From Fervidobacterium thailandense (GTDB lineage: Bacteria; Thermotogota; Thermotogae; Thermotogales; Fervidobacteriaceae), in contig NZ_LWAF01000002.1 of NCBI RefSeq assembly GCF_001719065.1, forward strand, positions 124,001-188,000: a DNA stretch of 64,000 bases. The letters are read 5' to 3'. The translations under genes and the position numbers were made by a program. Below, one piece after another: positions 60,240 to 63,110 of the stretch. The notes beneath the pieces were generated by a model. It worked only from the letters and a program-made list of their open reading frames with translations. It ran no database searches and was not told the origin of the DNA. Positions within the stretch are counted from its first letter, which is position 1; every line of letters begins with the position of its first letter.

Positions 60240-61904
60240 TCAGATTATAACAGTTTCCGTGTACTCGCCAAAGACCTCCCTCAACGCGTTACTTATTTCA
60301 CCCACGGTAGCGTACGCCTTGACTGCTTCGAGTACGTACGGGAATAAATTCTCATCGGTGGATGCGACCTCTTTGATCTTGTTGAGGAGTTTCTTCACCT
60401 TCTCGTTGTCCCTGCGTTCTTTTAGTTTCTTGAGTCGCTCTTTCTGCTTCTTCTCAAGTTCAGGATCAACCTTCAGAATCTCACCTATACGAGTTTCCTC
60501 TTGGATCTGGAATTTGTTCACACCAACGATTACCTCTTCTCCCCTCTCCACAGCCAACTGGTGTTTATAAGCGCTCTCGTGGATCTCTTTCTGTACGTAC
60601 CCGCTTTCTATTGCCTTTATCATTCCGCCCATCTGGTCGATCTTTTCGATGTACTCCATCGCCCTGCGCTCAATTTCGTTGGTCAACGCCTCTATGACGT
60701 ACGAACCACCGAGTGGATCTACCGTGTCCGCCACACCGGATTCGTAAGCGATGATTTGCTGAGTTCTCAAAGCGATCATCGCGGAAAGTTCCGTCGGAAG
60801 AGCGATTGCCTCGTCGTAGGAGTTCGTGTGCAGCGATTGCGTTCCTCCGAGCACAGCCGCAAGTGCCTGGATTGTAACCCTGATGATGTTGTTGAGCGGT
60901 TGCTGGGCCGTGAGCGTTGAACCTCCCGTCTGCGTGTGGAACCTGAGTTTCATCGCCTCGGGGTCGGTGACACCAAAACGGTTTTTCATTATCTTCGCCC
61001 ACAATCTCCTTGCGGCCCTAAACTTGGCAATCTCCTCGAGGAAATTGTTGTGCGCGGCGAAGAAGAACGAAAGTCTCTTTCCCAACACGTTCGGATCCAA
61101 GCCACGTTTAATGGCCGCTTCAACGTAAGCGATGCCATCGGCAAGTGTGAACGCAACCTCCTGAACAGCCGTGGAACCCGCTTCGCGGATATGGTAACCG
61201 CTGATACTGATAGGATTCCACTTGGGCATGTACTTTGAGCAGTACTCGAAAATGTCCGTAATCAACCTCATCGATGGTTCCGGAGGATAAATGTACGTTC
61301 CACGTGCAATGTATTCTTTGAGAATATCGTTCTGAATTGTACCACTCAATTTGTCTTGGGATACTCCCTGTTTCTCGGCCACCGCTATGTACATTGCAAG
61401 GAGTATCATCGCTGTGCTGTTTATCGTCATCGATGTACTAACTTGATCCAATGGGATACCATCGAAGAGTATCTCCATATCTTCTAAAGAATCTATTGCA
61501 ACACCAACTCGCCCGACTTCCCCCTCGGCCATCGGATCATCTGAGTCGTAACCGATTTGCGTGGGCAGGTCGAAAGCGACCGATAGTCCCGTTTGCCCTT
61601 GCGAGAGCAAGTATTTGTATCTTTTATTCGATTCCTCGGCCGTACCGAATCCCGCGTACTGACGCATCGTCCAGTAACGTGCGCGGTACATCGTCGGTTG
61701 CACACCGCGTGTGAACGGGTACTCACCGGGAAAACCGAGGTCTTCTAAGTAATTCAACCCCTCAACGTCTTCGGGTGTGTAGAGTCGTTTTATCTCGTAA
61801 CCTGAAGACGACATGAAAACTTGCTTTCTCTCCGGAACCTTCGAAATGGATTTTTCGACAACCTGCTCGTACTTTCTCTTCGCCTCCAAGAACTTTTCGT
61901 CCAT
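60240..61904 (-). CDS. mutA: Methylmalonyl-CoA mutase, catalytic (N-terminal) subunit
   Basis: The 554-residue protein is the TIM-barrel part of the B12 enzyme that interconverts methylmalonyl-CoA and succinyl-CoA. Conserved stretches are [32 protein letters not shown]-type near the N-terminus, [32 protein letters not shown] and [16 protein letters not shown]. It ends without the C-terminal cobalamin domain, so it is the split form used by archaea and some bacteria; the small B12 subunit must be elsewhere. ATG 61904 follows AAGGGGTGG. Cotranscription with the carboxyltransferase upstream suggests a methylmalonyl-CoA/propionate module. Confidence 0.94.
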
Positions 61905-61981
61905 CGTTCCACCCCTTCCACGATAACCTGTCGATGATTTGTTAGGATATTTACGCCACCAAAGCCTCAAGATACAGTAAG

Positions 61982-62278
61982 TCAAGCATCACGATTCAAG
62001 AATGTGCCCTTCTCATCTTGCGTTTGTGAGCTTGCAAATCTCTTGCCCGCTTCAAGTTGGTGTGTGAGTTTCTGGAAACTTTTGAGTTTCTCCTTCAACA
62101 ATTCCATTCTGCCCTTATCGCGTTCGTATATCTCGACCAACATCTCCCGAGGGAGTTCGGGCAACAACTTTTCCCGTAAATCCAACAACCGGTTGAGAGC
62201 ATCGTAATCTTCCTTTTCTATAGCCTCGTCTATGAGTGCCTCAATTTCAAGTATATCCTTTGGCTCATCGTTAAACAT
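61982..62278 (-). CDS. Small helical protein of unknown function
   Basis: The 98-residue protein is acidic in its first half ([29 protein letters not shown]) and predicted as two to three long helices followed by a disordered tail. The helix pattern ([12 protein letters not shown] ... [12 protein letters not shown]) resembles flagellar FliT-type chaperones, but the likeness is weak. It overlaps the end of the AcpS-FolK gene by 8 bases, so it is translationally coupled to it. No function can be assigned. Confidence 0.6.
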
Positions 62279-63110
62279 CGCCGTACACCTCTATTCCAGC
62301 GTTTTCCGCAGATGCCTCGTCGAGCAGTTTTTGATAGAGTTTTTCCATAGAGGTCTTCAAAACCGGGTGAACGAAGTGTGCATTCAACTCACGCATCGGC
62401 AAGACGAAAAATATCCTGTTCTCAAAATCGTAGTGTGGTACCACCAGCTCCGGGGTCCTTATCACAAGGTTGCCGTAAAAAAGTATATCCAAATCTATCA
62501 CCCTTGGGCCCCACTTTTCGGTCCTGACACGCCCCAGCGAGCGTTCAACGTTCAGGAGTGCTTCAAGAAGCTCCGATGGTGTTAAATCTGTGTCGATCTC
62601 AGCTACACAGTTAAGAAAATCGGGCTGATCAGTTTTTCCGTACGGTTTGGTCTCGTACACCTTTGAAACGCTTATTATATCGCAGAATTCAGATATTTCT
62701 CCCAGCGCGGCTCGCAAATTCTCCAATCTGTCACCAAGGTTACTGCCAAGTCCTATGTAGATACCTCCACGTTCCTTCTCAAGAATGACACTTGCGTAAA
62801 CGAACTTGTCGTGTGCCAACGAGGCGTGTATCCTGTTGAACACTCCACAAACGGGACGGACGTACCTGTGCAAAACCGGGTAAACCTCTCCGAATCGTCC
62901 GTTCAGAAAGGAAACGTCCTGAAACGAATTACCATCGATCCCAGTACCAAGAGCCTTGAAGTACGCTTCCTTCAACGCAAACCTCCCGGCAATGTATTCC
63001 TCATCAATTCTCGCACGGTTCATTCGCTCATCTTCGGTGAGCACTCTATTCGCAAGTTTCAAGTCCACTCTCTCGATATCAAGTACGTCAACACCAAAAC
63101 CAACGATCAA
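62271..63110 (-). CDS. Fusion of holo-ACP synthase (AcpS) and HPPK (FolK)
   Basis: The 279-residue protein joins two enzymes without a linker. Residues 1-112 are AcpS: IVGFGVDVLDIERV with metal-binding Asp8, AGRFALKEAYFKALGTG with Glu48, and the ASLAHD strand. Residues 116-275 are HPPK: YIGLGSNLGDRLENL, VYETKPYG, DQPDFLNCV, and RVIDLDILFYG with metal Asp207 and Asp209. It would attach phosphopantetheine to acyl-carrier protein and pyrophosphorylate the folate precursor. Start TTG 63110 lies in a TTGA overlap with the upstream stop, 9 bases after GAAGGAGG. Both halves keep their key residues. Confidence 0.88.
   Translation of the reverse strand: MIVGFGVDVLDIERVDLKLANRVLTEDERMNRARIDEEYIAGRFALKEAYFKALGTGIDGNSFQDVSFLNGRFGEVYPVLHRYVRPVCGVFNRIHASLAHDKFVYASVILEKERGGIYIGLGSNLGDRLENLRAALGEISEFCDIISVSKVYETKPYGKTDQPDFLNCVAEIDTDLTPSELLEALLNVERSLGRVRTEKWGPRVIDLDILFYGNLVIRTPELVVPHYDFENRIFFVLPMRELNAHFVHPVLKTSMEKLYQKLLDEASAENAGIEVYGDV

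Follow-up and report, generated by a model that had tools for sequence, protein, structure and literature searches.

AcpS (holo-ACP synthase) and HPPK (FolK) are encoded by a single gene in Fervidobacterium thailandense, and this fusion is the standard state of the Fervidobacterium-type (f1) and Pseudothermotoga-type (f2) families of the phylum Thermotogota, and no curiosity of one genome. Its product is very probably a bifunctional enzyme, in which HPPK was fused to acpS once, before the Thermotogales diversified, the HPPK half having subsequently decayed in the Thermotoga family (f3).

The fusion gene occupies positions 62271 to 63110, on the minus strand, of the window, that is, the whole stretch of 64,000 nucleotides that was analysed. 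It comprises 279 codons and a stop. Its start codon, TTG (63108-63110), shares bases with the TGA that ends an upstream carboxyltransferase gene (pycB/oadA-like), the two forming a TTGA at 63107-63110 on the same strand, and this stop-start overlap is retained as TTGA in f1 and as ATGA in f2. At the 3′ end, an overlap of 8 bases (62271-62278, minus strand) includes the ATG of a charge-rich, helical-looking ORF of 98 aa (61982-62278, minus strand), assigned to cluster c5 and matching nothing in Pfam or NCBIfam. Two genes past the fusion (60240-61913, minus strand) is found the large subunit of a methylmalonyl-CoA mutase-type enzyme, which consists of the mutase domain only and gives no match to the Pfam B12-binding domain; the gene order from fusion to mutase is retained in much of f1.

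Within the frame, the AcpS domain spans residues 1-112 (62775-63110), the junction residues 113-116 (62763-62774) and the HPPK domain residues 117-266 (62313-62762), all on the minus strand. Specifically, the Pfam scan detects ACPS (PF01648) at residues 5-88 with 46.2 bits (cut-off 25) and HPPK (PF01288) at residues 118-243 with 131.8 bits (cut-off 25.7), and the NCBIfam folK model TIGR01498 scores 142.1 bits (cut-off 54.1). The AcpS equivalog model TIGR00516 gives 51.9 bits, under its cut-off of 59.8, and the domain model TIGR00556 gives 56.4 bits, over its cut-off of 45.35; the best NCBIfam AcpS model is PRK14661 (169 positions), which covers residues 1-119. The modest AcpS score (46 bits) is explained by the divergence of the family. 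The first-pass annotation had described one ORF carrying a complete AcpS followed by a complete HPPK, and these matches, together with the presence of Asp8, Glu48 and the IDLDIL motif in the window fusion, bear this description out.

Among 29 aligned fusions, the others of which are 44-84% identical to the window protein, both halves preserve their functional residues. In the AcpS half, Asp8, Glu48, Lys52, His100 and Asp101 are invariant; assignment to AcpS is based on the curated-profile score together with the metal-binding Asp and Glu, the basic residue and the SxSHD motif, all of which are found, the motif reading SLAHD in the window fusion. In the HPPK half, alignment equates Asp206 and Asp208 with Asp95 and Asp97 of the E. 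coli enzyme, Arg203 with Arg92 and His226 with His115, and the residues invariant in the 29 fusions are, in E. coli HPPK numbering, Gly8, Asn10, Asn55, Glu77, Arg82, Arg84, Trp89, Arg92, Asp95, Asp97, His115 and Arg121. Curated-profile score, catalytic residues and fold all identify the C-terminal half as an HPPK, and Foldseek aligns the fusion model with solved HPPKs at a TM of 0.82-0.93, normalised to the target. Compared with its closest relative, to which it is 84% identical, the window fusion has a dN/dS of about 0.07-0.12 in each half, with dN of 0.07-0.09 and dS of 0.7-1.1 in the comparison with the fusion L107. Judged from these substitution rates, purifying selection acts on both halves of the fusion.

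A survey of 103 genomes of the phylum defines the distribution of the fused gene. All 30 of the f1 and f2 genomes having matches carry HPPK and ACPS in one ORF of 263-328 aa, shortened to 232 aa where the contig ends inside it; an f2 genome that is 71% complete gives neither match. The family f1 presumably also includes Thermosipho. In the remaining families of the phylum acpS and folK are separate ORFs, and in a non-exhaustive search of other phyla none of 38 loci with close HPPKs showed an AcpS match. The earlier interpretation of the fusion holds in part: the joining with almost no linker is genuine, but it is lineage-wide in f1 and f2 and, according to the f3 remnant described below, ancestral.

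The genome of the window is 99.95% complete in 55 contigs and yields a single match each to ACPS and HPPK, both inside the fusion ORF. A hidden second folK or acpS was sought in this genome and none emerged; stand-alone copies beside a degraded fusion, which the first-pass annotation had proposed to look for, are therefore lacking, and the fusion is intact. The same genome encodes DHPS, FolE2 and two carrier proteins of ACP size, while FolE and FolB were not detected in it. As no other AcpS or HPPK accompanies FolE2, DHPS and the two ACPs, the fusion must serve both pathways and, with the rest of the folate pathway found, its HPPK half would be the only enzyme for its step.

A comparative study (PMC1971073) treated HPPK and DHPS as signatures of the de novo folate pathway. 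Across the order these two proteins co-occur with FolE2: f1 and f2 possess all three, bar some incomplete genomes, as do the f3 genera g12 and g13, and the f3 genera g10, g11 and g14 show neither HPPK nor FolE2, nor a DHPS above the curated cut-off. None of the order's 45 genomes gives a FolB (dihydroneopterin aldolase) match, although FolE2, DHPS and HPPK are present in most members, and the FolB step must fall to another enzyme. One f1 genome encodes, besides FolE2, a strong match to GTP cyclohydrolase I (FolE; G083:C10:25664-26149), unique within the order. In a genome of family f10 (G041:C7:299493-300638), adjoining folP and folK matches are interrupted by stops or frame changes, and the genus of this organism includes genomes with intact folP/folK and others with none, which may reflect a decay of folate synthesis or a poor assembly.

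The N-terminal AcpS would transfer 4′-phosphopantetheine from CoA to apo-ACP, and the C-terminal HPPK would pyrophosphorylate 6-hydroxymethyl-dihydropterin for DHPS. AcpS enzymes are homotrimers with active sites between subunits, and the fusion may, as the first-pass annotation proposed, display three HPPK units around an AcpS trimer. The two reactions are probably independent and, because they have no common intermediate, a metabolic channel between them would not be expected. The fusion would entail a single start codon and a putative 1:1 expression of the two activities, with HPPK rigidly packed against AcpS. It is improbable that the fusion serves to couple the two pathways, whether by regulation or through ligands in common, such as ATP/CoA status or an action of 3′,5′-ADP on HPPK. 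The maintenance of the fusion across two families and the rigid packing in the model would agree with such coupling, but the pathways do not meet in any intermediate, f3 gave up HPPK catalysis and kept AcpS, and both enzymes are separate in other families of the phylum.

The reading of a bifunctional enzyme with a single origin finds its historical evidence in f3. The AcpS of one f3 genome matches PDB entry 5XUM, which bears the title Thermotoga maritima AcpS, at 100% identity, and all 13 f3 AcpS proteins that were read extend for about 57-75 residues beyond the AcpS domain. In alignment with the fusions, these tails begin at the fusion junction, LE-[KR]-x-x-G-x-[IV], and contain collinear pieces of HPPK, namely the first strand, a strand-helix piece (EIETDLPPYELL in the tail of g11 versus EVDTDLPPLELL in the fusion L107) and YGN. 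They lack the C-terminal third of HPPK as well as its loops and its R..W.GPR.IDLDI catalytic segment; the deletion of this segment with its two Asp, found in 13 of 13 proteins, sets the tails apart from HPPK enzymes, and their homology to HPPK is detected both by profile and by fold. In particular, hhalign scores the tail profile against the fused HPPK at 31.1, with a maximum of 23.1 for 400 column shuffles (mean 11.9, sd 2.6), 14.1 for the reversed tail and a maximum of 19.5 for 110 unrelated ORF families from the same loci. Chance was considered as a source of the likeness and is ruled out by the shuffles and the 110 families.

Structural comparison points in the same direction. AlphaFold2 predicts the f3 tail as beta-alpha-beta-beta-alpha-beta, with a block pLDDT of about 95; the HPPK core of the modelled fusion has the same order of elements. 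A Foldseek alignment of the modelled fusion with the 5XUM crystal extends over 221 columns, at a TM of 0.80 normalised to 168 residues; the AcpS part alone (about 111 residues) could reach at most 0.66, so that some of the tail has to lie over HPPK with matching orientation. The 5XUM entry contains one chain, a description of entry content that leaves the assembly state unsettled. In addition, the small gene of cluster c5 that lies after the fusion in most f1 and f2 genomes is also the downstream neighbour of the tailed acpS in g10, g11 and some of g13. Finally, dN is lower than dS in all pairs of f3 tails measured, the weakest case being L140/L142 (dN 0.094 versus dS 0.208). On profile comparison and predicted structure, the tail of f3 AcpS is what is left of the fused HPPK, miniaturised and catalytically dead, and was apparently crystallised in T. 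maritima AcpS without being recognised.

The opposing view, that the Thermotoga tail is an unrelated ferredoxin-like domain and that the fusion was made in f1 and f2 only, is very unlikely. The ferredoxin-like fold is common, single tail sequences have no Pfam match, and the tail profile scores more weakly against stand-alone HPPK, at 21.6, just over the maximum of 20.5 for its 400 shuffles. Nevertheless, the score against fused HPPK lies beyond all shuffles and all 110 families, and the shared junction, the collinear strand-helix motif with YGN, the common downstream gene and the overlay on the crystal structure all argue for descent from HPPK. If the f3 tail is such a remnant, the fusion predates the split of f1, f2 and f3. 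A single in-frame event would have placed HPPK behind acpS before the order diversified; in f1 and f2 the fused copy is now the only HPPK, and in f3 the HPPK half would have been reduced to a small ferredoxin-like core lacking the catalytic residues.

In the HPPK tree, a single clade of fused HPPKs is not rejected (p 0.31), a result by which a single origin is not proven, and the AcpS tree leaves the groups without resolution. In f3, the separate folK comes after folE2 and folP, a folP-folK adjacency that is found also in f8 and f10, and it pairs with the folK of f8 (support 98/81); an alternative clade uniting the fused HPPKs with the folK of f3 could not be rejected (AU p 0.23). The best DHPS tree does not group f3 with f1 and f2 (AU p 0.074), and the FolE2 of f3 has a long branch. 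A folK remnant beside folP in f1 and f2 was sought by tblastn, and no trace was found. The favoured though not proven explanation, based on these trees and gene orders, is that folate synthesis was lost in the f3 ancestor and the cluster re-acquired by g12 and g13; the alternative is the retention of an old separate copy of folK.

All f3 genera have kept the dead core, and dN stays below dS, which suggests that AcpS came to depend on the attached HPPK core for folding or stability. A loss of an AcpS helix was considered as the cause of this dependence and dropped, as loop lengths fail to separate the groups. It is, on balance, plausible that a fused active domain became indispensable to an unrelated essential enzyme and was later miniaturised to a dead scaffold instead of being deleted, leaving the fossil seen in 5XUM.

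In the AlphaFold2 monomer model of the fusion (pLDDT 91, pTM 0.90), the last AcpS strand covers residues 103-111 and the first HPPK strand residues 117-123; the linker is thus about 5 residues long, in agreement with the near absence of a linker claimed initially, and no flexible linker is present. It is doubtful in the extreme that the ORF, although translated whole, works as two proteins, by virtue of an internal start or of proteolytic cleavage at the junction. Some relatives do have an in-frame ATG or GTG 1-13 codons ahead of the HPPK start, but its position varies among them; the window fusion has no in-frame ATG, GTG or TTG from codon -19 to +5 around the HPPK start, and thus none in the junction, and the model offers no flexible segment. 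That the two genes were joined by an assembly or sequencing error, through loss of a stop and a start between acpS and folK as the first-pass annotation had feared, can practically be dismissed, as the junction of the window fusion contains no stop codon, 30 genomes from both families have the same unbroken frame, several of them assembled into a single contig, and nothing was found in favour of such an error. Chance is excluded on like grounds, given the conservation of the frame down to 44% identity and the low dN/dS of both halves.

The AcpS-HPPK fusion can be compared with several known systems. T. maritima AcpS (5XUM), at 169 aa as long as the NCBIfam model NF011255/PRK14661, has an orthologous AcpS domain, the same junction and a C-terminal extension that overlays the HPPK core, as in the fusion; it differs in that the extension lacks the catalytic segment, the loops and the C-terminal third and is no HPPK enzyme, folK being separate. 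Stand-alone HPPKs (E. coli, H. influenzae and S. aureus structures) share with the fusion the complete fold and all catalytic residues, but have no AcpS in front. HPPK is likewise fused to another enzyme in DHNA-HPPK (2CG8) and HPPK-DHPS (3MCO, 4PZV, 2BMB, 7MPY), whose partners catalyse neighbouring folate steps, whereas AcpS belongs to fatty-acid synthesis; the HPPK fusions in the papers and structures examined have folate partners (PMC4224340, PMC1971073). The PPTase domain of fungal fatty acid synthase, recovered among the Foldseek matches, is also an AcpS fold within a larger protein, but its partner uses the pantetheinylated carrier, which the HPPK of the fusion does not. A literature search of limited scope returned no paper on an AcpS-HPPK fusion and none naming 5XUM, and domain databases may list the architecture. 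AcpS and HPPK are known families; the lineage-wide fusion joins these known parts in a new way, and what is surprising is the fossil HPPK in a solved AcpS.

For the annotation of Fervidobacterium and Pseudothermotoga genomes, the fusion means that these are not short of acpS or folK. The remnant accounts for the C-terminal extension of the solved AcpS, and the fusion, as a rare genomic character, would date the event before the diversification of the Thermotogales. Throughout whole families two essential pathways are tied to one gene, and the fusion and its remnant together represent a testable case of a fused enzyme becoming a structural appendage.
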